Assembly: GCF_022014595.1 (NCBI RefSeq)
Contig: NZ_CP091740.1
Coordinates: 1,426,001-1,490,000, forward strand
Length of the DNA stretch: 64,000 nucleotides
Origin: Solitalea lacus
GTDB taxonomy: Bacteria; Bacteroidota; Bacteroidia; Sphingobacteriales; Sphingobacteriaceae
Direction: 5' to 3'
The notes beneath the pieces were generated by a model. It saw only the letters and a list, made by a program, of their open reading frames with translations. It ran no database searches and was not told where the DNA came from. Shown piece after piece: positions 1,781 through 52,649 of the stretch. Position numbers and translations under genes: made by a program. Positions within the stretch are counted from its first letter, which is position 1. Each line of letters begins with the position of its first letter.

Positions 1781-4579
1781 GTGAAAAATTTCTCCATTTC
1801 AAAGGTTTTCTTTTCGTTGACTGTAATGCTGCTCATGGTAAGTTCTGCTTGGGCGCAAAACGGTAAAATTGTTGGTAAAATAACCGATAAAGCCTTTAAC
1901 GAGCCAATTGTAGGCCTGCCAGTTTTGGTAAAAGGAACATCTAAGGTTACTCCATCTAATATTGACGGTCGTTACGAATTAAACCTTGCTCCAGGTACTT
2001 ATACCTTGGAGTTTAAATATATCAGTTTTAAAACAAAAACAGTTTCCGAAGTAGTAGTTCGTGCCGGAAAGGTTACCGAATTAAACGTAGTAATGGATGA
2101 TGCCGCCACCGAATTAGGTGAGGTTGTGGTAACTTCTACTTATAAAAAAGAGACAGTTAACGCTTTGTATTCTTTGCAGAAGAGCAATATTCGCGTTTCG
2201 GATGGCATTTCGGCGGAAATTATAAAGCGCTCTCCTGATAAAAATACTAGTGAAGTATTAAAACGGGTAAGTGGCGCAAGTATCCAGGATAATAAGTTTG
2301 TTATTGTTAGGGGGTTGGCGGACCGTTATAACACATCATTAATGAATAATGCTTCGCTTCCAAGTACAGAAAGCGATAAACGCGCATTTAATTTTGATAT
2401 TATTCCTTCTAATTTAATTGATAATATAGTTGTTAATAAAACTGCTTCTCCTGATTTACCTGGTGATTTTTCAGGTGGCGCGGTTCAAATTACAACAAGA
2501 GATTTTCCTGCCGAACCAGTTTTTGTATTCACAATAGGTAGCGGTGTTAATACACAAAGTACCTTCAAAGATTATCGTTCAGCTAATACAGGAAAACTTG
2601 ATTTCTTAGGATTTCTTGATCAATCAAGGGCGCTTCCCTCGGCTTATGAGTCAACTCGTAATCAGTATCCTTCACTGCCAATAGCAGAGAGCCAACAGAT
2701 TTCTTATGCATTTCCTAATACTTACGGGGCTGCTAAAACAGGTACTACATTGCCAAATGCTAACATGCAGTTGTCAATTGGTAATAATAAAACCTACGAA
2801 TCAGGTAGTCGCTTTGGATATATCGCTTCGTTTAGTTACAGAACACAGCGTGATATTTTGATGCGCGAACGTTCTGACTATAATCTGCAGAAAATAGAGG
2901 TGATTAGAAATGACGATAAGTTATTTAACTACTCAAATAACTTAGGTGGTTTGTTAAATTTTGCCTACTCAAAAGGGAATAACAAGTTTGCTTTAAAAAA
3001 CTTCTATAACAACACCTTTAAAAATAGCTACGTAGACCGTGTAGGAAAAATTTCAGATGAGTCAAACTCAAATAACCTAAATAACATTGGTTCGTTTAAT
3101 GATGTTTATCAAAACTCGTTATTCAACTCAGTTTTAGAAGGACAACATGCTTTACCAAAAGCAAATATAAATATTGATTGGAATGCAGGTTTTTCAAATA
3201 CATTCAAAGATCAACCTGATCAAAAAATTGTTGAAGCAATTAAACCTGTTGATAGCACAGATCCTTATTATGTAACACTTTCTAACTACAATAGTCCGGC
3301 TGTTCAAAATGCAGGTAGGGTTTATAGTAAGTTGAATGAAAATGTTTTTAACAGTAATCTGAATCTTTCGATTCCATTTAAGCTGTTTAAGCAAAGCCAA
3401 AAGTTAAAATTTGGAGGATCAACCGTAAACAGGTTTAGGGATTTCAGAATTGATGCATTAGGTTACGCCTCAGCTTCTTATGCGCCGGTGAAAATTGATC
3501 TGGCCAATGGAGTGAACTTCGATAATATTTTCTCTACACAATCAATGCAATCTAACAATTTAATGTTAAGTGTTATCTCAACTAATTCACTTGATTATGA
3601 GGGAAAAGCGCAAACACATTCTGGTTATGTAATGTTGGATACAAAGTTTAGCGAAGCCTTAAGAATAGTTTGGGGAGCAAGACTTGAAGCTTTCAATATG
3701 GATCTTACTCCGGCTGGAAAGGCATACTTAAAGCAAACTTATAAGCAAACGGATATCCTTCCATCAGCCAATCTTATCTATAGTTTGAATACAAAATCAA
3801 ATTTAAGAGCTTCTGCTTCTCAAACAGTTAACCGACCAGAATTTAGAGAGATTGCGGCTTACCAATATTTTGACTTCGAAACTGATTTTAACATTGTAGG
3901 AGAAAAAAACCTGAAAATTGCCAAAGTAACTAATGCCGATTTACGTTATGAGTTTTATCCGGCAGCAGGAGAGATTATATCCTTTAGTGCATTTTATAAG
4001 AAGTTTAAGAACCCGATTGAGCAAATAAATAATGGAAGTCGTGTTTTTACATTCAAAAACGCTGAAAGTGCCAATGATTATGGTGTAGAGGTTGAGTTGC
4101 GTAAGAAGCTTAATTTCTTTGGTGATGCCGCCTTCTGGAATAACACAACATTCTATACTAATGCATCATACATCAAATCGGATGTGGTTTTAGATGGTTC
4201 ATCTCGTCAAAGACCACTACAAGGACAATCTCCGTACCTAATCAATACTGGTTTACAATACAACAATGGCAAACTAGGGGTAAATGCAATGTTTAATCGT
4301 GTTGGACAGCGCATGCTTTATGTAGGAACCAGCGGTGGGGCCGATATTTATGAAGCTCCTCGTAATGTAATTGATTTCCAAATTAGCCATAAGCTTCTAA
4401 AGGATAACGCAGAATTGCGCTTTACAGCTGGCGATTTATTAGCTCAAAAGACTAAATACTACTATAACTTCGGAGGAAGCACAGGTTACCAATCAAATGA
4501 AGATAGAGTAATCAACAGTATTCAGCCAGGCCGTACATTCTCATTAAGCTTTTCTTATAATCTTCCATATAATAAATAG
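1781..4579 (+). CDS. TonB-dependent outer-membrane receptor
   Basis: Outer-membrane active-uptake channel of 932 residues. A signal peptide ends at AWA/Q (residues 23-26). A carboxypeptidase-regulatory-like beta domain follows (about 28-108), then the plug (about 115-236, with VIVRGLADRYN and DLPGDFSGGAVQIT), and a 22-strand-type barrel ending in an aromatic-rich FSLSFSYNLPYNK. The start is GTG with a weak AAGG upstream. No SusD gene follows, so this is not a classical Sus pair; instead a surface lipoprotein gene lies 81 bases downstream, probably its partner. The substrate cannot be told from sequence. Confidence 0.93.
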   Translation: MKNFSISKVFFSLTVMLLMVSSAWAQNGKIVGKITDKAFNEPIVGLPVLVKGTSKVTPSNIDGRYELNLAPGTYTLEFKYISFKTKTVSEVVVRAGKVTELNVVMDDAATELGEVVVTSTYKKETVNALYSLQKSNIRVSDGISAEIIKRSPDKNTSEVLKRVSGASIQDNKFVIVRGLADRYNTSLMNNASLPSTESDKRAFNFDIIPSNLIDNIVVNKTASPDLPGDFSGGAVQITTRDFPAEPVFVFTIGSGVNTQSTFKDYRSANTGKLDFLGFLDQSRALPSAYESTRNQYPSLPIAESQQISYAFPNTYGAAKTGTTLPNANMQLSIGNNKTYESGSRFGYIASFSYRTQRDILMRERSDYNLQKIEVIRNDDKLFNYSNNLGGLLNFAYSKGNNKFALKNFYNNTFKNSYVDRVGKISDESNSNNLNNIGSFNDVYQNSLFNSVLEGQHALPKANINIDWNAGFSNTFKDQPDQKIVEAIKPVDSTDPYYVTLSNYNSPAVQNAGRVYSKLNENVFNSNLNLSIPFKLFKQSQKLKFGGSTVNRFRDFRIDALGYASASYAPVKIDLANGVNFDNIFSTQSMQSNNLMLSVISTNSLDYEGKAQTHSGYVMLDTKFSEALRIVWGARLEAFNMDLTPAGKAYLKQTYKQTDILPSANLIYSLNTKSNLRASASQTVNRPEFREIAAYQYFDFETDFNIVGEKNLKIAKVTNADLRYEFYPAAGEIISFSAFYKKFKNPIEQINNGSRVFTFKNAESANDYGVEVELRKKLNFFGDAAFWNNTTFYTNASYIKSDVVLDGSSRQRPLQGQSPYLINTGLQYNNGKLGVNAMFNRVGQRMLYVGTSGGADIYEAPRNVIDFQISHKLLKDNAELRFTAGDLLAQKTKYYYNFGGSTGYQSNEDRVINSIQPGRTFSLSFSYNLPYNK

Positions 4580-4660
4580 GTTAATTTGATAACGCTTAGT
4601 TTTCAATTACTTAACATTTGAATTAAATATTTGCAACATAAAATTTAAGCAAAATCAAAA

Positions 4661-6043
4661 ATGAAAAAATTATTAGGTCTTTCAGTTTTATTTACTGCAA
4701 CATTACTTGCAAGCTGTAGCAAAGAAGATGATACAAAACCTACTCCTGTTAATGTAGAAACAAACATTCGTGGAGTGATCAGCAAGAATATCACCCTTAC
4801 TAAAGACAAAATATGGACTCTTCGCGGGCCTGTTTATGTAACTGCTGGAGCTACAATAACAATTGAGGCCGGTACAAAAATTATCAGCAAGAAGGATTCT
4901 GCAGGTATACTTGTTATAACTCCAGGTAGTAAAATCAATGCCGCAGGAACTGCTTCGGCTCCAATTGTATTCACTTCTGGTGAAGCTGCTCCAGCGGCAG
5001 GTGACTTTGGAGGAGTTGTTATTTCGGGGAAAGCAACCGTAAATGGTAACCATAAAACTATGGAAGGGGGGCTTGATCCTCAATATTCAGCTATTTGGGG
5101 TGCTACTGAGGTGACCAAATCTCAAACCAGTGATTCAGATAATTCAGGTGTATTGCAATATGTTCGGATTGAATATGCTGGAAAAGCAGTAGCTCCAGAA
5201 GTTGAGCTAAACGGCTTAAGTTTATATGGTGTAGGTAATGGAACAACATTTGATCATATTCAAATTACAAGGGGACTTGATGATGCGTTCGAATTCTTTG
5301 GAGGTACATTCAATGCCAAGTATCTGATTGCATATGGAAATGGTGATGATGACTTCGATTTTGATGATGGTTTCCGAGGTAATCTGCAATATATCATCTC
5401 TATCAAAGATCCAAATGTTACTGATGCTAAAGGTACAACTGGAGATGTTTCAAATAATATTGAGTGTGATAATACGGATGGTAAAACAGCTCCCTATGCT
5501 ACAACTCCTGTAACGAAGATTAATATTGCTAATGCAACTTTAGTTGGTCCGGGAAATACTCCTAATTCTCCAGTATGGAATAACTACGGGTATGGTGCTC
5601 GTTGGAGAAGAGGTTCTACTTTCAATGTAGCTAACTCAATTATTATTGGTGTTAAGTTGAATGGTGTTTCTATTGAATCCAATGAAGCAGCTCAATCATT
5701 CAATGATGGCGTAAGTTCATTCAAAAACAATATTTTAAATACCTTGGCATCGGCTCCATATCGCGTAGGTTCTGATGTGACAACTGTAGTTGGCTTTAAT
5801 GCTGCTAAAGTACAAGAGTTAGCTTTAACAACTTCATATGCTGCAACAGCTGATGATGTGAAGTTAACTGATCCATTCAACTTTGCTAAGCCAAATGTTG
5901 CTCCTAAAGCAGATTCTCAAGCTTTAACTATGGGAACTAAATTTGAAGGAGTTTTTGCAACTGGTTTTGATAAACCTGCTTATGTAGGTGCATTAACTAC
6001 TGCTGCAGACTGGACTGCAGGTTGGGCTGCTTGGGGTAAATAA
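4661..6043 (+). CDS. Surface-exposed lipoprotein with beta-helix-like repeats, partner of the TonB receptor
   Basis: A 460-residue lipoprotein. Its signal peptide ends at the lipobox LLASC, with C19 lipidated. The residues right after it (SKEDD) fit the Bacteroidota surface-export signal, a lysine followed by acidic residues near the cysteine. The body is rich in short beta repeats (VTAGATITIEAGTKI, INAAGTASAPIVFTSG), suggesting a right-handed beta-helix. Around residues 225-240 is a dense acidic stretch, DDDFDFDDG, resembling a calcium site. Homologues in this phylum often sit beside such receptors and are sometimes misnamed multidrug transporter; nothing here supports transport by itself. 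Function is unknown; substrate capture for the upstream receptor is inference. Confidence 0.75.
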   Translation: MKKLLGLSVLFTATLLASCSKEDDTKPTPVNVETNIRGVISKNITLTKDKIWTLRGPVYVTAGATITIEAGTKIISKKDSAGILVITPGSKINAAGTASAPIVFTSGEAAPAAGDFGGVVISGKATVNGNHKTMEGGLDPQYSAIWGATEVTKSQTSDSDNSGVLQYVRIEYAGKAVAPEVELNGLSLYGVGNGTTFDHIQITRGLDDAFEFFGGTFNAKYLIAYGNGDDDFDFDDGFRGNLQYIISIKDPNVTDAKGTTGDVSNNIECDNTDGKTAPYATTPVTKINIANATLVGPGNTPNSPVWNNYGYGARWRRGSTFNVANSIIIGVKLNGVSIESNEAAQSFNDGVSSFKNNILNTLASAPYRVGSDVTTVVGFNAAKVQELALTTSYAATADDVKLTDPFNFAKPNVAPKADSQALTMGTKFEGVFATGFDKPAYVGALTTAADWTAGWAAWGK

Positions 6044-44349: not shown

Positions 44350-44730
44350 ATGAGAAAAAAAGTAATCATACCGCTGCTTTCATTTGTCATTTTCCTGGGC
44401 GCCATTTCTCCAGGGTTTGATCTTTGTTGCTTTATTCCAACCTATATTAAAACCATTCAGGATTTCCTAAACCATCACCAAGATCAGGGAATGTCATTGG
44501 TGGAGTATGTTGATCATATCAATACCGATAAGGAACATACCGGAAAAGCATGCAATCAAGAAGCGTTAAAGTGCAGTTTTTGTACTCAAGTACATATTCT
44601 GATTATTAATGAGTTTAACTCTCATGCTATTTCTTGCCGCGTAAGCCCTATTGAAAAAACGGAGTTAGGCTATCAATCGAATTATTCTTCATTATTCTCC
44701 AAATACATCTTTCAGCCCCCTCGGGTTTAA
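44350..44730 (+). CDS. Cys/His-rich exported small protein of the metal-efflux locus
   Basis: 126 residues with an N-terminal hydrophobic export segment (about 5-22) and a periplasmic part rich in potential metal ligands: a CC pair at residues 26-27, HH near 42, EHTGKAC around 69 and CSFCTQVH near 78. No domain recognised. Comparable proteins often precede CzcA-type pump genes in this phylum. Its position suggests metal binding or sensing in the periplasm. The C-terminal YIFQPPRV is characteristic in look but of unknown use. Confidence 0.65.
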   Translation: MRKKVIIPLLSFVIFLGAISPGFDLCCFIPTYIKTIQDFLNHHQDQGMSLVEYVDHINTDKEHTGKACNQEALKCSFCTQVHILIINEFNSHAISCRVSPIEKTELGYQSNYSSLFSKYIFQPPRV

Positions 44731-44914: not shown

Positions 44915-47900
44915 ATGTTAGATAAGATTATTCATTTTTCAATAAATAATAAGCTGATCATCGGATTATTTACCTTGGCACTTATTGCTGTAGGTATTTA
45001 TTCGTTGAGTAAGTTGCCAATTGATGCTGTGCCTGATATTACCAATAATCAGGTACAAATAATTACCAATGCCCCATCGCAGTCGGCCCCCGATATAGAA
45101 CGACTGGTTACCTTTCCAGTTGAACAAACCATGGCAACCATTCCGGGTATAGAAGAGATACGTTCATTTTCACGTTTCGGACTTTCTGTGGTAACGGTGG
45201 TATTTAAAGAAGATATTGAGGTGTACTGGGCGCGTCAGCAGGTAAACGAACGTTTGGTGCAGGCCAAAGAGCTAATTCCAGCAGGTGTTGGTTCTCCGGA
45301 AATGGCTCCGGTAACTACCGGCTTAGGCGAAATTTATCAGTATGTTCTGCATCCTAAAAAAGGTTATGAAAACAAGTATGATGCTATGGAACTGCGAACC
45401 ATTCAGGATTGGATTGTTCGCCGGCAGCTGTTAGGAACCGAAGGAGTTGCTGATGTAAGCAGTTTCGGCGGTAATGTCAAGCAATATGAAATCGCTATTA
45501 ACTCTGATAAGCTAAGAAGCTTAAATATCAGCATTAATGAATTATTTACAGCTCTTGAAAAAAATAACCAAAATACGGGTGGAGCTTATATTGATCGTAA
45601 ACCTAATGCCTATTTTATTCGATCTGAAGGTTTAATCAATTCTACTGATGATATAAAAAAGATTGTAGTTCGTAATGTCAGCAATGGATTGCCGGTGTTG
45701 ATTGGCGATATTGCCGAAGTTCGTTTTGGTTCGCCAGTGCGTTATGGTGCTATGACCCGCAATGCCAATGGTGAAGTAGTGGGTGGTATTGTGATGATGC
45801 TTAAAGGAGCCAACTCGTCAAAGGTAATTGCAAGCGTAAAAGCCCGGGTTGAACAAATTGAAAAAAACTTACCCGAAGGGGTGACCATTGAGCCTTACCT
45901 TGATAGAACCAAACTGGTAGATAAGGCTATTGGAACAGTAACTAAAAACCTAGCCGAAGGGGCCCTGATTGTAATCTTTGTGCTGGTGCTCTTGCTGGGC
46001 AATATGCGTGCAGGATTGATTGTAGCTTCGGTAATACCACTGGCTATGCTTTTTGCCGTTTTCATGATGAATATGTTTGGCGTTTCAGGTAACCTTATGA
46101 GCTTAGGCGCTATTGATTTCGGATTGATAGTTGACGGAGCCGTAATTATTGTGGAGGCTACTATGCATCATTTAGGCTTACGCAATGTCGATCGGCAACT
46201 GACACAGTACGAAATGGATGAGGAGGTGTACCGATCAGCACGAAAAATACGTAACAGTGCAGCCTTTGGCGAAATCATTATCCTAATCGTTTACTTACCG
46301 ATACTTGCCTTGGTAGGGATAGAGGGTAAAATGTTTAAGCCGATGGCACAAACTATATCATTTGCCATTTTGGGAGCTTTTATTTTGTCCCTCACCTATA
46401 TTCCCATGATGAGTGCTCTGTTTCTCAGTAAAAAGATAATAAAGAAACGCACCATTTCTGACCGAATTATGGACGTATGTCATAAAATTTATCAACCAAT
46501 AATAAACTGGGCTTTAAGTAAAAAAGCTGTGGTGGTTGGTGTTGCTTTGGTGCTTTTCGCTGTGACTCTATTTGTATTTAATCGTTTAGGAGGAGAGTTT
46601 ATCCCAACTTTAGATGAAGGAGATTTTGCAGTTGAAACTCGTGTTATGACCGGAAGTAGCATTTCGCAAACGGTAGAAGCTGCACAAAAATCAGCAAAAG
46701 TGTTATTGGCCAATTTTCCTGAGATAAAAGTAGTTGTGGGTAAAGTTGGTTCGAGTGAAATTCCTACCGACCCAATGCCGGTTGAGGCATGTGACCTAAT
46801 GGTGATTTTGAAGGATAAATCAGAATGGATAAGTGCGAACGATAGGGACGAATTAGCCGAAAAGATGCAGAAGACACTTGAAGAAAATATTCCGGGAGTA
46901 TCTTACGGCTTCCAGCAACCAATTCAAATGCGTTTTAATGAATTAATGACAGGGGCTCGACAAGATGTGGTGCTTAAAATTTACGGTGAGGATTTAACCA
47001 AGTTAGCTGACTATGCAAAACAAATAGGTAAACTGATTCCGGGTATTGAAGGTGCTAAGGACCTTTATGTTGAGAAGGTAAGTGGTTTACCGCAAATTGT
47101 TGTGAAGTACAACCGCGACCGTATGGCTCAATACGGGCTAAATATTGAAGATGTAAACCAAACCATCAATACAGCATTTGCAGGACAAGTGGCGGGAATG
47201 GTGTTTGAAGGTGAAAAACGCTTTGATTTAGTCCTGCGACTTGATCGCCAAAATCGTCAGAGTATTGAAGATGTGGCCAATCTGTATGTTTCTGCACCTA
47301 ATGGCAATCAGGTTCCATTGAATCAACTGGCCGATGTGGAGATGATTGTTGGACCTAACCAAATACAACGCGACGATGCCAAGCGACGTATCACTGTAGG
47401 TTTTAACGTTAGGGGGCGAGATGTTGAAAGTATTGTAAACGAAGTAAAGGGAAAGATTGAAAGTAATGTCAAACTGGGTCCCGGGTATTATGTTACTTAT
47501 GGAGGCACTTTCAAAAATCTTGAAGAAGCGCAGAAACGCTTGAGTATTGCCGTTCCTGCTGCACTCTTTTTAATTTTTGTTTTGCTGTATTTCACCTTTA
47601 GGTCGGTAAAATACAGTTTGTTAATCTTCACAGCAATTCCGCTTTCGGCAATTGGTGGAGTATTTGCCCTTTGGGTACGTAACATGCCATTCAGTATTTC
47701 AGCTGGAGTTGGTTTTATTGCCCTTTTTGGAGTAGCCGTATTAAATGGTATTGTACTCATTTCCGAATTTAATCATCTCAAAAAAGCAGGACAGACGAAC
47801 TTAAAGGAAATTATATTACAAGGCACTTATAATAGATTGCGTCCTGTAATTATGACGGCAGCGGTAGCTTCATTGGGTTTTTTGCCAATGGCTTTGTCGG

Positions 47901-49270
47901 GTTCGGAAGGGGCTGAAGTGCAGCGTCCGTTGGCAACGGTGGTAATAGGTGGTTTGATTACGGCAACTTTGCTAACGCTGGTGGTACTGCCGGTTTTGTA
48001 TACGTATTTTGAGAAAATTAAAAGCAAAATATCTAATTACGCAGTAGAGATTTCAGTGCTGGCGTTGTTGCTTTCTATTCCTGCAGTTGGCACTGCGCAA
48101 CAAAAGCCTTTGTCTCTGGATTCGGCAATAAAAACCGCTGTTGTGAGAAACCAGGGAGTGAATAGCGCAAGTTTAACAGTCGATTATCAAAAGTATCTGA
48201 AAGGAGTTTCCTCGGAAATTGGTAAAACGGATATCAGTTTATTGAATGGGCAAATCAACTCAAATAAGCGGGATAAAAATATTACCATTTCTCAGACCAT
48301 CCCATTTCCAACAGTATTTGCTGCCAATGCCTCGCTTGCTACAGCGCGTGTGAAAAGCAGCGAGTTTAAAAAGGCTGCAACAGTTAATGCCTTAACTTTG
48401 CAAGTAAAGCAGGTGTATTACAATCTTCAATATTTGAATGATAAAAAGCAGTTGCTGGGTCAGCAGGATAGTATCTATGCATTGTTTTTAAAAGCCGCTA
48501 ATCTCCGTTACAAAACCGGAGAAAGCAGCTTGCTTGAGAAATCGGCTGCTGAAACACAACGTAACGAGATCAATAATCTTCTTAATCAAAATGAAGAAGA
48601 GATTGCTATTGAGCAAAGCCGGCTTAATGTATTGTTGAATGGAACCGGGTTTACTATGCTTCATAACTCAAATGAAGAGCGTTCTTGGAACTTGCAATCC
48701 GATACAACGTCAGTTACCTACAATCCTGATTTAGCATACTACAAACAAGAGATAGAGGTTGCCGATAAGCTAAAGAAAACAGAAAAGAATAAGCTGTTTC
48801 CTGATTTGTCGTTCGGTTATTTTAACCAGTCGTTAATTGGGTATCATGATGTAAACGGACAAGCGCAATACTTTGGTCCGTCTGATAGATTTCAGGGTTT
48901 CCAGGTTGGTATAGCCTTGCCAATTTGGTTTAAGCCTTATGGTGCTCGCATAAAGGCTGCGGATGTTCAGAAACAGATTGCCCAAAGTGATTACAGTCTT
49001 TATCAGAAAAACTTGACCGGATCGTTTCAACAAACATATCGTGAATATGTAAAAAACAGGAAAAGTGTTGATTATTACCGTCAAAGTGCACTACCTAATG
49101 CCGAATTGATCATAAAACAATCACAAGAGGCATTCAGGTTGGGCGAAATCGGCTATGCCGAATATTTGTTGAACATGCGCCAGGGATTAGGTATCAAGGA
49201 AGGGTATTTACAAGCCCTAAATCAATTAAATCAAAGTATTATCATTCTAGAATATTTAACCGGAAAATAA
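44915..49270 (+). CDS. CzcA/CusA-type heavy-metal RND pump fused to a TolC-like outer-membrane channel
   Basis: A 1451-residue fusion. Residues 1 to about 1035 are a complete HME-RND pump: an N-terminal span (IIGLFTLALIAVGIYSL), two large periplasmic loops, and the membrane motif AIDFGLIVDGAVI with D401 and D407 as candidate proton-relay residues. The second half ends near VVLPVLYTYFEK. Residues 1042-1061 form a signal-peptide-like segment (NYAVEISVLALLLSIPAVGT then A/Q), followed by about 390 residues of outer-membrane efflux protein (SLDSAIKTAVVRNQGVNSAS, LRYKTGESSLLEKSAAETQ). Similar fusions occur elsewhere in Bacteroidota. It should export divalent or monovalent metals with the adaptor encoded 3 bases later. 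The metal is not predictable with certainty. Confidence 0.93.
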   Translation: MLDKIIHFSINNKLIIGLFTLALIAVGIYSLSKLPIDAVPDITNNQVQIITNAPSQSAPDIERLVTFPVEQTMATIPGIEEIRSFSRFGLSVVTVVFKEDIEVYWARQQVNERLVQAKELIPAGVGSPEMAPVTTGLGEIYQYVLHPKKGYENKYDAMELRTIQDWIVRRQLLGTEGVADVSSFGGNVKQYEIAINSDKLRSLNISINELFTALEKNNQNTGGAYIDRKPNAYFIRSEGLINSTDDIKKIVVRNVSNGLPVLIGDIAEVRFGSPVRYGAMTRNANGEVVGGIVMMLKGANSSKVIASVKARVEQIEKNLPEGVTIEPYLDRTKLVDKAIGTVTKNLAEGALIVIFVLVLLLGNMRAGLIVASVIPLAMLFAVFMMNMFGVSGNLMSLGAIDFGLIVDGAVIIVEATMHHLGLRNVDRQLTQYEMDEEVYRSARKIRNSAAFGEIIILIVYLPILALVGIEGKMFKPMAQTISFAILGAFILSLTYIPMMSALFLSKKIIKKRTISDRIMDVCHKIYQPIINWALSKKAVVVGVALVLFAVTLFVFNRLGGEFIPTLDEGDFAVETRVMTGSSISQTVEAAQKSAKVLLANFPEIKVVVGKVGSSEIPTDPMPVEACDLMVILKDKSEWISANDRDELAEKMQKTLEENIPGVSYGFQQPIQMRFNELMTGARQDVVLKIYGEDLTKLADYAKQIGKLIPGIEGAKDLYVEKVSGLPQIVVKYNRDRMAQYGLNIEDVNQTINTAFAGQVAGMVFEGEKRFDLVLRLDRQNRQSIEDVANLYVSAPNGNQVPLNQLADVEMIVGPNQIQRDDAKRRITVGFNVRGRDVESIVNEVKGKIESNVKLGPGYYVTYGGTFKNLEEAQKRLSIAVPAALFLIFVLLYFTFRSVKYSLLIFTAIPLSAIGGVFALWVRNMPFSISAGVGFIALFGVAVLNGIVLISEFNHLKKAGQTNLKEIILQGTYNRLRPVIMTAAVASLGFLPMALSGSEGAEVQRPLATVVIGGLITATLLTLVVLPVLYTYFEKIKSKISNYAVEISVLALLLSIPAVGTAQQKPLSLDSAIKTAVVRNQGVNSASLTVDYQKYLKGVSSEIGKTDISLLNGQINSNKRDKNITISQTIPFPTVFAANASLATARVKSSEFKKAATVNALTLQVKQVYYNLQYLNDKKQLLGQQDSIYALFLKAANLRYKTGESSLLEKSAAETQRNEINNLLNQNEEEIAIEQSRLNVLLNGTGFTMLHNSNEERSWNLQSDTTSVTYNPDLAYYKQEIEVADKLKKTEKNKLFPDLSFGYFNQSLIGYHDVNGQAQYFGPSDRFQGFQVGIALPIWFKPYGARIKAADVQKQIAQSDYSLYQKNLTGSFQQTYREYVKNRKSVDYYRQSALPNAELIIKQSQEAFRLGEIGYAEYLLNMRQGLGIKEGYLQALNQLNQSIIILEYLTGK

Positions 49271-49273
49271 ACC

Positions 49274-50485
49274 ATGAATAATGTTTTTAAAAATATATTA
49301 CCTGCTATCATTCTACTGTTTTTAGCTTCTTCATGTGGAAGTAAAAGTGATGGCAATGACAAAGCTGGAGCTCACAATCATGATGCAGAAACGAAAGAAA
49401 AACAGGATGCAGTAACAGGGGTAGAGCTTACCGATAATCAATACAATACTGTTGGTGTTGTTTTAGGGGCTGTTGAACAAAAACAGTTAAGCGGAACTGT
49501 AAAGGCAAGCGGCTTGCTAGATGTACCGCCTCAAAACTTGGTCAGTATTTCTGTTCCTTTTGGTGGTTTTCTAAAGTCAACTAATTTGTTGCAAGGCAGC
49601 TTTGTAAATAAAGGACAGCAAATAGCTGTAATTGAAAATCCAGAATATATTCAAATTCAACAGGATTACTTGGAAAGTAAAAGCCATTTGGAGTTTTTGG
49701 AATCAGAATACAAACGTCAGGAAGAACTGATGACCGCCAATGTAAACGCAAAAAAGACTTTTCAAAAAGCCAAAGCCGATTTTATGGCAATGAAAGCAAG
49801 AGTACAAGGTTTAAGATCAAAATTACAGTTGCTTAATATTTCTCCGGCATCCATTGAAAATGGTAATCTGAAAAACTCCATTGCTATCTACTCACCAATT
49901 AACGGATATGTAACGCAGGTGAATGTAAACATTGGCTCTTTTGCCAATCCCACTGACGTATTGTTTCGAATTGTAGATACTGAACATTTGCATGCAGAGC
50001 TTACCATTTTTGAAAAGGATATTCCTAAACTAAAAATTGGTCAGCGTGTACGTTTTAATCTTTCAAATGATAACCAAGAGCGTACTGCGAAAGTTCATTT
50101 AATTGGAAGGGAAATTAGCAAGGAGCGTACTATTAATGTACATTGCCATTTAGATAAAGAAGAAACTACCTTGATTCCAGGAACTTTTTTAAGCGCTGTG
50201 GTTGAAACCGGATTAAATGCTGTTTCAGCCTTACCCGACGAAGCAGTAGTTCTGAATGGTGATAAAAAGATAATCTTCCTATCTGAAGGAACCAAGAAAG
50301 AAGGCAATGAAATAAAGCATGTCTTTATCCCGCTGGAAGTACAAACCGGTGTTTCTGAAAAAGGTTTTACAGAGGTGTTGTTACCTGGAGGTTTTGAAAG
50401 TAAGAAAGGAAATATAGTTATAAAAGGAGCATATGACTTATTAGCCAAAATGAACAGTGGTGAAGAAGAAGGACACGCGCATTAA
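49274..50485 (+). CDS. CusB/CzcB-type periplasmic adaptor lipoprotein
   Basis: Membrane fusion protein of 403 residues linking pump and channel. The signal peptide ends in a lipobox LASSC (C21). A histidine-containing N terminus (AHNHDAE) and C terminus (EEEGHAH) may bind metal. The lipoyl-like halves (VSISVPFGGFLKS, SIAIYSPINGYVTQVNVN) flank a coiled-coil hairpin (about 125-180), and the beta-barrel domain follows (AELTIFEKDIPKLKIGQRV). It starts 3 bases after the fusion gene, so the two are translationally coupled. Confidence 0.92.
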   Translation: MNNVFKNILPAIILLFLASSCGSKSDGNDKAGAHNHDAETKEKQDAVTGVELTDNQYNTVGVVLGAVEQKQLSGTVKASGLLDVPPQNLVSISVPFGGFLKSTNLLQGSFVNKGQQIAVIENPEYIQIQQDYLESKSHLEFLESEYKRQEELMTANVNAKKTFQKAKADFMAMKARVQGLRSKLQLLNISPASIENGNLKNSIAIYSPINGYVTQVNVNIGSFANPTDVLFRIVDTEHLHAELTIFEKDIPKLKIGQRVRFNLSNDNQERTAKVHLIGREISKERTINVHCHLDKEETTLIPGTFLSAVVETGLNAVSALPDEAVVLNGDKKIIFLSEGTKKEGNEIKHVFIPLEVQTGVSEKGFTEVLLPGGFESKKGNIVIKGAYDLLAKMNSGEEEGHAH

Positions 50486-50678: not shown

Positions 50679-52649
50679 ATGCAATTCAATAATAAATACT
50701 TTCACTCTGAATGTGAAACCTGTGCAACCGTTGAACAGGTTTCACAAAGTCCTAGTACTGCAGTTGAGCAACCCGAAACAAGTTTTATTAAGCAATATGG
50801 GATTGAGGTAATCAGTTTTATGCTGCTTGCTGTAGGTTTAGTACTTGATAATTATATAAAACCTGATTTTTTTAAAGGGGCTGTTCGGTTGATTTGGTAC
50901 CTGATAGCTTATTTTCCTGTGGCATGGCCTGTCATTTTTAAAGGTCTTAAGCTAATAGGTAAAGGCGAAATGTTTACTGAGTTCTTCTTAATGAGCATTG
51001 CTACCATTGGCGCTTTTGCTATCGGCGAATATCCCGAGGGTGTCGCAGTAATGTTATTTTACGCTATTGGAGAATTGTTTCAGGCAGCAGCTGTAAGAAG
51101 AGCAAAGGGGAATATAAAGGCCCTGTTAGATGTTCGACCTAATACGGCAACCGTTCTGCACAATGGTAGCGAAAATATTATTCGACCTGAGGGTGTTAAG
51201 GTGGGAGATTTAATCAGGTTGAAACCCGGAGAGCGTGCGTCTGTGGATGGTATTTTGGTTGATGGTTACAGTTCTTTTAATACGGCTGCTTTAACCGGTG
51301 AAACTAAACCTTTAACCATCATGGCAACTGAGCAAGTTTTGGCCGGTATGATTAATATTGACCGTGTAGTAGATGTAAAAGTGACAAAAAAATATTCCGA
51401 AAGTTCACTTGCCCGCATTTTGGAAATGGTACAGAACGCCTCAGCTCACAAAGCTCCTACGGAATTGTTCATTCGCAAATTTGCTAAAATTTACACGCCT
51501 ATCGTTGTTTATATGGCTTTGGGAGTAATTTTTCTTCCTTATTTTTTTGTTGATACCTATGTATTTGATGAATGGTTGTATCGTGGATTGATCTTTCTTG
51601 TAATTTCCTGCCCTTGTGCATTGGTGATTTCCATTCCCTTGGGTTACTTTGGAGGTATAGGTGCTGGTTCTCGCAATGGTATTTTGTTCAAAGGTTCCAA
51701 CTATCTTGACCAGCTTGCTAAGCTTACCACCGTCGTGATGGACAAAACAGGAACACTAACCAAAGGTGTTTTTAACGTTCAAGAGGTAAAGGCAGTTGGT
51801 GTTTCTGAAAATGATTTGGTTAATTATACAGCAGTACTTGAAGGTCACTCAACGCACCCGGTAGCAAAAGCCATTGTAAATTATGCTCAGGGGAAACACT
51901 TAAACAATAATTCTACTGCTGAAAATATTGAAGAAATTGCCGGACATGGCTTAAAAGGAGTAATAAATGGTAAAACAGTTTTAGCTGGTAATATTAAACT
52001 TCTGCAAAAATTCGACATCATCTTTCCCCACGAAATTAATACTATTGTAGATACGGTTGTGTTAGTAGCGATTGACAGAAACTATGCAGGTTATTTTATC
52101 ATTGCTGATGAGTTAAAGGAAGATGCTTTAATGTTGGTGAAAGAATTATATAATGAGGGGGTTAAAGATCTGGTCATGCTTTCGGGAGATAAGTCAAGTG
52201 TGGTGCAAAAGGTTACTAACATGTTAGGCATCCAAAAAGGTTTTGGCGATTTATTGCCTGAAGGCAAGGTGCAAAAGTTTGAGGAGATAAAATGCGATAA
52301 GTCTAAGGTGGTAGCTTTTGTAGGAGACGGGATTAATGATGCCCCTGTTTTAGCATTAAGCGATGTGGGGATTGCGATGGGAGGTTTGGGTAGCGACGCA
52401 GCTATTGAAACTGCAGATGTGGTTATTCAAACCGATCAACCATCTAAAATTGTCATGGCGATTAAAATCGGCCATGCGACCCGGAGAATTGTTTGGCAAA
52501 ATATCAGTTTGGCAATGGGTATTAAAGTAATTGTACTCGTTTTAGGAGCCGGTGGTGTAGCAACCATGTGGGAAGCTGTTTTTGCTGATGTAGGTGTTGC
52601 TTTGTTGGCTATCCTCAATGCTGTTCGGATCCAGCGGATGAAGTTTTAA
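50679..52649 (+). CDS. Heavy-metal P1B-type ATPase (Zn/Cd/Co/Pb class)
   Basis: A 656-residue inner-membrane metal exporter. The membrane metal site is CPC (C311, P312, C313) in ISCPCALVIS; phosphorylation occurs at D355 in DKTGTLT; the ATP-binding domain has GHSTHPVAKAI; and the hinge is GDGINDAPVLALSDVGIAMG. The usual N-terminal HMA domain is missing; only a short CETC motif (C12-C15) remains. CPC with this arrangement fits the ZntA/CadA class. It moves metal to the periplasm, where the RND system above could take it out of the cell. Starts 193 bases after the adaptor gene. Confidence 0.93.
   Translation: MQFNNKYFHSECETCATVEQVSQSPSTAVEQPETSFIKQYGIEVISFMLLAVGLVLDNYIKPDFFKGAVRLIWYLIAYFPVAWPVIFKGLKLIGKGEMFTEFFLMSIATIGAFAIGEYPEGVAVMLFYAIGELFQAAAVRRAKGNIKALLDVRPNTATVLHNGSENIIRPEGVKVGDLIRLKPGERASVDGILVDGYSSFNTAALTGETKPLTIMATEQVLAGMINIDRVVDVKVTKKYSESSLARILEMVQNASAHKAPTELFIRKFAKIYTPIVVYMALGVIFLPYFFVDTYVFDEWLYRGLIFLVISCPCALVISIPLGYFGGIGAGSRNGILFKGSNYLDQLAKLTTVVMDKTGTLTKGVFNVQEVKAVGVSENDLVNYTAVLEGHSTHPVAKAIVNYAQGKHLNNNSTAENIEEIAGHGLKGVINGKTVLAGNIKLLQKFDIIFPHEINTIVDTVVLVAIDRNYAGYFIIADELKEDALMLVKELYNEGVKDLVMLSGDKSSVVQKVTNMLGIQKGFGDLLPEGKVQKFEEIKCDKSKVVAFVGDGINDAPVLALSDVGIAMGGLGSDAAIETADVVIQTDQPSKIVMAIKIGHATRRIVWQNISLAMGIKVIVLVLGAGGVATMWEAVFADVGVALLAILNAVRIQRMKF

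Follow-up and report, generated by a model that had tools for sequence, protein, structure and literature searches.

The components of tripartite efflux pumps are commonly regarded as proteins made one by one, and the heavy-metal systems CusCBA and CzcCBA have their channel as an independent protein that bears an N-terminal signal of its own. In the window analyzed here, a stretch of 64,000 nucleotides from Solitalea lacus, one gene joins an RND pump to a TolC-like part, which raises the question of how two halves expected in different membranes could come from one chain. We consider it very likely, at roughly 88%, that the product is a polyprotein which signal peptidase I would cut at an internal signal peptide into pump and channel.

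One open reading frame encodes pump and channel

All features described here lie on the forward strand, with positions counted within the window. The fused gene (44915..49270) starts with ATG at 44915, ends with a stop codon at 49268-49270, and is open throughout, encoding 1451 amino acids (160.5 kDa uncut). The Pfam profile ACR_tran (943.7 bits) spans residues 5-1032, and residues 1-1032 (44915..48010) make up an RND permease part of the CusA/CzcA type. The protein belongs to TIGR00914, the CusA/CzcA heavy-metal RND family, with 1217.5 bits over residues 1-1038 against a cutoff of 701.45. In the C-terminal part, two stretches matched Pfam OEP, the better being residues 1267-1450 (97 bits versus 22). 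The original prediction of a pump and a TolC-like part in a single ORF was thus confirmed. The channel part falls below the cutoffs of both OMF subfamilies (TIGR01844, 33.6 versus 225.15 bits; TIGR01845, 33.2 versus 210.05 bits). OEP and ACR_tran were both present in all 48 members of a subset hand-picked from 112 distinct fused ORFs.

A separate ORF for a periplasmic adaptor (49274..50485) starts 3 bases past the stop codon of the fusion. It is a CzcB-like MFP (TIGR01730, 119.1 bits versus a cutoff of 94.9; HlyD_D23, 107.5 versus 30), and its N terminus (..LASSCGSK) reads as a lipoprotein signal. The ORF at 50679..52649, which we take to be a P-type ATPase from its motifs SCPCAL and DKTGTLT, is probably a metal-resistance neighbor. 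Upstream of the pump, an ORF of 126 amino acids (44350..44730) with a hydrophobic N terminus and several cysteines had no family match in Pfam and TIGR profile scans. In domain scores and fold match, the set of HME-RND pump, adaptor, and OMF resembles CusCBA and CzcCBA, except that here pump and channel form one chain with the signal in its middle.

The C-terminal 390 residues (48098..49267; 44.1 kDa) are the predicted released channel. Their AlphaFold2 model has a mean pLDDT of 92.1, and a fold search matched it to CusC (3pik; Z score of 28.1, rmsd of 4.3, 376 aligned residues) and TolC (1ek9; Z score of 26.7). The model is a confident prediction of a TolC/CusC-like OMF fold. A phmmer search of the channel part against the PDB returned a best E value of 0.26, a chance match, and relatives came from the fold search instead.

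A predicted internal signal peptide ahead of the channel

The last transmembrane helix of RND pumps (TM12) ends in the cytoplasm. Here it is followed by a basic tail, KIKSKISN (residues 1034-1041; 48014..48037), which forms an n-region with K1034, K1036, and K1038 as its basic residues. E1045 stands just before a short hydrophobic core, the h-region, at about residues 1046-1058 (48050..48088). Residues 1059-1063, GTA/QQ, contain a signal peptidase I-like site, GTA/Q (48089..48100), with the predicted cut between 48097 and 48098, that is, between A1061 and Q1062 (codon 48098-48100). The original prediction had placed basic stretch, core, and site together at residues 1042-1062; core and site stand, but the basic residues lie before 1042. 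The proposed 390-residue channel beginning at Q1062 agrees in length with the predicted cut.

We aligned the 112 fused ORFs, from this and other genomes, with unanchored MAFFT; the loci were the top of similarity-ranked lists, which biases the set towards fused, full-length matches. The column of A1061 holds Ala in 100 of 111 sequences and that of Q1062 holds Gln in 106 of 111, while no single residue occurs in more than 60 of the 112 in columns 1034-1060. Across the aligned sequences, the linker drifts, and conservation within it is highest at the A/Q site. Lysine is the commonest residue in columns 1034 and 1036, and the n-region is net positive in 109 of 112 linkers; it is acidic in L118 and L123 (net -3) and neutral in L121.

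A site picker, purpose-written for this analysis and run blinded on the 112 linkers, made a pick in all but one. Its picks had Q at +1 in 86 of the 111 linkers, versus 30 of 1186 hydrophobic peaks within the pumps. Shuffling the 25 residues that follow the core (200 shuffles) left Q at +1 in a mean of 12.6 picks (maximum, 22) of a mean of 106.9. The signal-peptide and site feature is far above chance. In the 25 linkers where the picker was off Q, it stopped short of an [AGSC]Q in 19, went beyond it in 2 (L043 and L047), and had none to find in 4.

According to the available text of a study of Bacteroidetes, signal peptidase I substrates in this group follow a "Q-rule," with Gln at +1 in a mean of 71% of predicted substrates across species (PMC5837995). 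The GTA/Q of the fused ORF, an A-x-A-like site with Gln at +1, conforms to this rule; the signal is internal here, whereas internal signals are not mentioned in that text. Two ORFs of the same genome exceed the cutoff of TIGR02227 (signal peptidase I), and the host thus encodes the enzyme. Could the chain be cut by another protease, or elsewhere than at A1061/Q1062? The exact motif is evidently not obligatory, [AGSC]Q being absent from 4 of the 112 linkers (L078, L106, L107, and L114), but the -3/-1/+1 pattern is that of signal peptidase I substrates of this phylum, and we regard this alternative as extremely unlikely.

Split homologues offer a comparison. Their pumps end after a similar tail, and in 19 of 20 the separate channels carry an ordinary N-terminal signal ending in [AGSC]Q, L064 being the one without the Q. 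Split L066 stands beside fused L190 and L195, and its signal sequence matches theirs. Pump-channel adjacency is not universal, since no channel adjoins the pump in the split loci L060, L063, and L076. At the sequence level, the fusion's internal signal is the counterpart of the signal peptide at the N terminus of the split channels.

This correspondence also bears on a different origin of the channel, namely, translation initiating or re-initiating before the core, which would yield a channel with an ordinary N-terminal signal and leave the full-length chain a minor product. Split homologues do begin there, and an ATG, GTG, or TTG is present between TM12 and the core in 64 of the 112 fused genes (ATG in 35). 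The other 48, the window's gene included, have no start codon in that stretch, and the in-frame GTG and TTG that come later in the window's gene, ahead of the site, fall within the core, so that no basic n-region would be left. Such internal initiation has a very slim chance of being correct.

Proposed processing of the fused chain

Under signal peptidase processing, residues 1-1061 would fold into an inner-membrane RND pump of the CzcA/CusA type that exports metal. The basic and then hydrophobic stretch would act as an internal Sec signal peptide that re-enters the membrane and carries the next 390 residues across to the periplasm. A cut after A1061 by signal peptidase I would free the channel, which would begin with Gln1062, a residue expected to cyclize to pyroglutamate. 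The channel would go to the outer membrane and form a TolC/CusC-like trimer, the pump would keep the used signal peptide on its C terminus, and the separately encoded adaptor would bridge pump and channel. The available text of PMC4446572 gives a tripartite assembly of 3:6:3, in which pump and channel would be the two 1:1 partners, and this would fit an equal supply from one chain. Cleavage by signal peptidase I, as originally predicted, finds support in site conservation, in Gln at +1, and in the signals of the split channels, all of which agree with it at the level of sequence.

Alternatively, the hydrophobic stretch might be a 13th transmembrane helix, a signal anchor, leaving the channel covalently tied in one chain across both membranes. 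The stretch is real, and all 112 distinct ORFs have an open, intact frame. However, a mere anchor would not keep Ala at -1 and Gln at +1, and the core is short, with a family median of 15 for its uncharged run versus 19 in pump hydrophobic peaks. Geometry also argues against an uncut chain. Residue 5 of the channel model aligns with residue 1 of TolC in 1ek9, placing the cut site 4 residues before that position, and the first channel helix in the AlphaFold2 model begins 6 residues after the site. In OMFs, the first helix belongs to the equatorial domain, halfway up a periplasmic barrel of ~100 Å and far from the inner membrane, according to the available text of PMC8277102; with only 6 residues between site and helix, an uncut chain could hardly reach. 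We therefore judge an uncleaved fusion very unlikely and retain signal peptidase processing.

The cytochrome b/c1 polyprotein FbcH of Bradyrhizobium japonicum has an internal signal peptide that is cut by signal peptidase, and its released partner stays in the inner membrane. Judged by its sequence, the window's protein has the same layout, a polytopic inner-membrane protein followed by an internal signal peptide and then an exported partner, but here the released partner would be expected to reach the outer membrane. Fusions involving pore proteins of the outer membrane are a known rare class, for which the available text of PMC4827864 names OMPP-OMPP and SLH fusions, not RND-OMF. Permeases of up to 1637 amino acids have been reported, with no fusion mentioned in the available text of PMC10872679. 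Across the full-text literature covered, including the available parts of these two papers, PMC8277102, PMC4446572, and PMC6281302, there was no account of this efflux-pump fusion or its cleavage; most subscription papers were outside this scope, and absence is not proven.

If processing occurs as proposed, a single message would yield both pump and channel in many Bacteroidota, as a polyprotein that separates itself. Their supply would be fixed at 1:1, assembly could be coupled, and the Q-rule would extend from protein starts to internal sites. The natural fused and split versions would be a clean system for testing whether it matters that pump and channel are produced together.

Distribution, origin, and other cargo

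We searched genome contigs with a profile of the 48-member alignment, TM12 included. By their titles, the best 80 of 586 loci are from Bacteroidota, with the exception of one from Ignavibacteriota, and 74 of these 80 titled loci have the fused architecture, which by these sequences is widespread in Bacteroidota. The site picker was off Q in 23 of 71 titled loci. A contig search with the channel part alone gave no match, and BLAST matched the window's channel part to all of 113 fused ORFs except L056. The fusion also occurs on plasmids, 37 plasmid records being covered to at least 80%; among the plasmid matches listed, all 19 from other phyla (H67-H85) end at residue 1009. Relatives with split operons might suggest that a sequencing or annotation error had joined two genes, but recurrence in independent genomes, with 112 distinct ORFs, 74 of 80 titled loci, and plasmids, refutes such an artifact, whose probability we put close to nil. 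The 37 plasmid records name a CusA/CzcA RND transporter (31), a CzcA-family pump (1), or nothing (5), leaving the channel half unnamed; database naming would have to be corrected if the proposed processing is true.

A tree of 211 pump domains needs 15 changes between fused and split states. For the ancestor of a 205-row clade, with outgroup rooting and equal costs, a fused state costs 13 and a split state 15; in this count, L075, whose ORF runs off the contig, was relabeled fused, and L154 and L167 were counted as fused. Given this narrow margin and the meeting of long branches, an ancient fusion with repeated re-splitting is only favored.

Other partners occur on pump C termini. In L230, the pump is fused to an adaptor through a lipobox; its nearest relative, L235, is split, and the lipobox fusion is thus a single case. 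The pumps of L154 and L167 appear to carry another secreted-type protein of ~170 amino acids, likewise via an A/Q site. It is conceivable, though we hold the idea only tentatively, that Bacteroidota RND pumps are polyprotein carriers that have repeatedly gained an internal signal peptide at the C terminus, by which an envelope partner from the same translation event is delivered: usually the channel via signal peptidase I, the ~170-residue protein via A/Q in L154 and L167, and the adaptor via lipobox and signal peptidase II in L230. Coupled delivery may seed pump assembly on the spot, with the spent signal peptide staying as a 13th hydrophobic segment.

The cargo of L154 and L167 had no Pfam match, and its structure model is unreliable (mean pLDDT of 39.4). 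In 395 genomes it gave two weak matches, each in a different genome: one with an E value of 1.2e-5 and 32% identity over 76 residues, the other with 5.4e-5 and 28% over 88. A neighborhood link between this cargo and adaptors is suggestive only: both weak relatives are small ORFs (159 and 151 amino acids) with a signal-like N terminus, and both adjoin a CzcB-like adaptor ORF.

The pump-channel gene and its linker

The pump-channel fusion is a single intact forward-strand frame (44915-49270) encoding 1,451 amino acids. Residues 1 to 1038 form a CusA/CzcA-family pump (TIGR00914, 1217.5 bits against a cutoff of 701.45), with Pfam ACR_tran spanning residues 5 to 1032, and the C-terminal part is a channel of the Pfam OEP family. 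The linker joining them reads ..TYFEKIKSKISNYAVEISVLALLLSIPAVGTA/QQKPLSLD.. (the slash marks the predicted cut). A1061 and Q1062 stand at the very positions given in the original prediction, which held that signal peptidase I (SPase I) cuts between them. A separate, lipoprotein-like adaptor open reading frame (ORF) (49274-50485, forward) begins 3 bases past the fusion stop codon, and a P-type ATPase gene identified from motifs (50679-52649, forward) lies downstream of it. Upstream of the pump, an ORF of 126 amino acids (44350-44730) is hydrophobic at its N terminus, contains several cysteines, and has no match in Pfam or NCBIfam.

In an unanchored alignment of 112 fused ORFs, the A1061 column holds Ala in 100 of 111 and the Q1062 column Gln in 106 of 111; across the remaining columns between 1034 and 1060, no single residue is shared by more than 60 of the 112. 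A site picker that used hydrophobicity and the -3 and -1 positions only, and was blind to +1, placed a site in 111 of the 112 linkers, 86 of them with Gln at +1. In control picks from the pump parts (1,346 hydrophobic peaks, 1,186 picks), Gln stood at +1 in 30; with the 25 residues past the core shuffled, the mean was 12.6 of 106.9 (maximum of 22 in 200 runs). Among loci from titled genomes, the blind picker gave +1 Gln in 48 of 71, and [AGSC]Q lies past the core in all 73 fused ones. In 109 of the 112 linkers, the n-region carries a net positive charge, and the uncharged run of the core is short (median of 15 versus 19 in pump hydrophobic peaks). Gln at +1 is given for 71% of predicted SPase I substrates as a mean over 334 Bacteroidetes species and for 77% in Ignavibacterium album (Bochtler et al., PMC5837995), and the latter figure fits the site ING/Q of an Ignavibacteriota fusion (L212).

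Two observations count against a signal peptide. [AGSC]Q is absent from the linkers of L078, L106, L107, and L114 among the 112 fused ORFs, and in L118 and L123 the hydrophobic core and A/Q site follow acidic, proline-containing n-regions with a net charge of -3. A signal of the latter type could hardly function at an N terminus, so its orientation may depend on the preceding TM12. Were the channel instead made by internal translation initiation ahead of the core, a start codon would be needed there; that route is closed to the gene in the window, in which 0 of the 15 codons from TM12 to the core are ATG, GTG, or TTG, and 48 of the 112 fused genes, this one included, have none of the three in this stretch.

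Split relatives, channel fold, and proposed processing

Split pumps end a few to about 25 residues past TM12. A channel ORF lies downstream in 20 split loci, including L154 and L167, whose pumps bear another cargo; the gap is at most about 0.5 kb in all of them but L171, where it is 1.3 kb. All 20 separate channels have a signal-like N terminus, ending in [AGSC]Q in 19 (the exception is L064). At the split loci L060, L063, and L076, no channel was seen, and an adaptor-like ORF follows the pump. Because split L066 adjoins fused L190 and L195 on the tree and its signal, MKNNHKNITAVFILLFSFAGFGLKAQTP, nearly matches the internal KMKKHNHKNFAAVLILIFCIMGIGIKSQTP of L190, the internal segment is, as judged from sequence, the same element as the N-terminal signal peptide, at least in this lineage.

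The model of the 390-residue channel (mean pLDDT of 92.1) aligns with CusC (3pik; Z of 28.1, rmsd of 4.3, 376 aligned) and TolC (1ek9; Z of 26.7, rmsd of 4.4, 379 aligned). Its residue 5 falls on residue 1 of 1ek9; if that numbering starts at the mature N terminus, as we assume, the predicted cut lies 4 residues ahead of its TolC counterpart. The first helix of the model comes only six residues past the predicted cut, and in TolC-type channels this helix lies in the equatorial domain, midway up the ~100-Å periplasmic barrel (PMC8277102), which argues strongly that a chain still tethered to the inner membrane could hardly position it there. An uncut fusion with the linker as a membrane anchor leaves the conserved A/Q site unexplained.

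Cleavage of the fusion protein at the predicted site is thus very likely on sequence grounds. Most likely, the pump part would insert first, the internal signal would then drive channel export, and SPase I would cut after A1061; the genome has two SPase I-like ORFs. The expected products would be a pump of ~116 kDa, still bearing the spent signal at its C-terminal end, and a channel of ~44 kDa, which would move to the outer membrane with an N-terminal pyroglutamate. FbcH is reportedly a precedent for a polyprotein processed by signal peptidase, as proposed here. The component parts are already known; the literature searched gave no description of such a polyprotein for efflux pumps. The tripartite assembly is given as 3:6:3 (PMC4446572), which would make pump and channel the 1:1 pair and hence these, not the adaptor, the sensible parts to fuse.

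Other fusions and a divided pump

Two Cyclobacteriaceae MAGs carry a CzcA-type RND pump in frame with a secreted protein of ~170 amino acids (L154, 1013-4771; L167, 1046-4774). This cargo, which has no Pfam family, sits behind an internal signal peptide ending AQA/Q, and the TolC-type channel is encoded downstream in an ORF of its own, complete with a signal. The L154 cargo is weakly similar (E values of 1.2e-5 and 5.4e-5) to small ORFs in two genomes, L223 (1324-1800 of the reverse complement, minus strand; 159 amino acids) and L224 (1369-1821; 151 amino acids). Both have a signal-like N terminus, stand alone, and directly adjoin a CzcB-like adaptor ORF; they are possibly an unnamed periplasmic partner of metal pumps. 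In L230 (758-4999), an RND pump is joined to an adaptor via an internal lipoprotein signal with the lipobox LLAS/C; in L235, 56% identical to it, pump and adaptor are separate genes. These fusions support reading the linkers as working signal peptides and suggest that the internal-signal design has been used more than once.

A second heavy-metal-type RND pump of the genome that contains the window (L231) consists of two adjacent ORFs (2465-3757 and 3747-5699; ~430 and ~650 amino acids), divided near query residue 430, which we take to lie between TM4 and TM5. Two-ORF pumps were read in four loci (L231, L232, L233, and L234), similar pairs occur in several relatives, and the two-piece form seems conserved.

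Distribution of the fused form

RND matches were found in all 41 genomes searched (that of the window and 40 relatives), many nearly full-length in a single frame, and at an E value of ≤1e-150 in 290 of 395 phylum-wide genomes, fused and nonfused together. Loci were drawn from among the matches listed in these searches and from further listed places, and the regions read include 20 chosen for splits or odd lengths and 60 for fused forms. They yielded 113 fused ORFs (112 distinct), of which 112 have a BLAST match to the window channel part; L056 has none. In the titled-genome scan, a script test placed the end of the pump and the channel in the same frame in 73 of the 80 best of 586 loci, and L206, missed by the script's anchor, is a 74th. 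They include Chryseobacterium, Flavobacterium, Pedobacter, Spirosoma, Hymenobacter, Dyadobacter, Chitinophaga, and Aquimarina, with L212 the one from Ignavibacteriota. As the locus and plasmid sets rank fused relatives first, their counts measure breadth and not prevalence. An assembly or annotation artifact is ruled out by the fusion in independent genomes.

Among 3,445 matching plasmid records, 37 span 80% or more of the query, and every one of these carries a Bacteroidota name. Those 37 are among records H26 to H65, in which pumps of the fusion type sit on Bacteroidota plasmids of Hymenobacter, Spirosoma, Fibrella, Adhaeribacter, Phocaeicola, and Parabacteroides.
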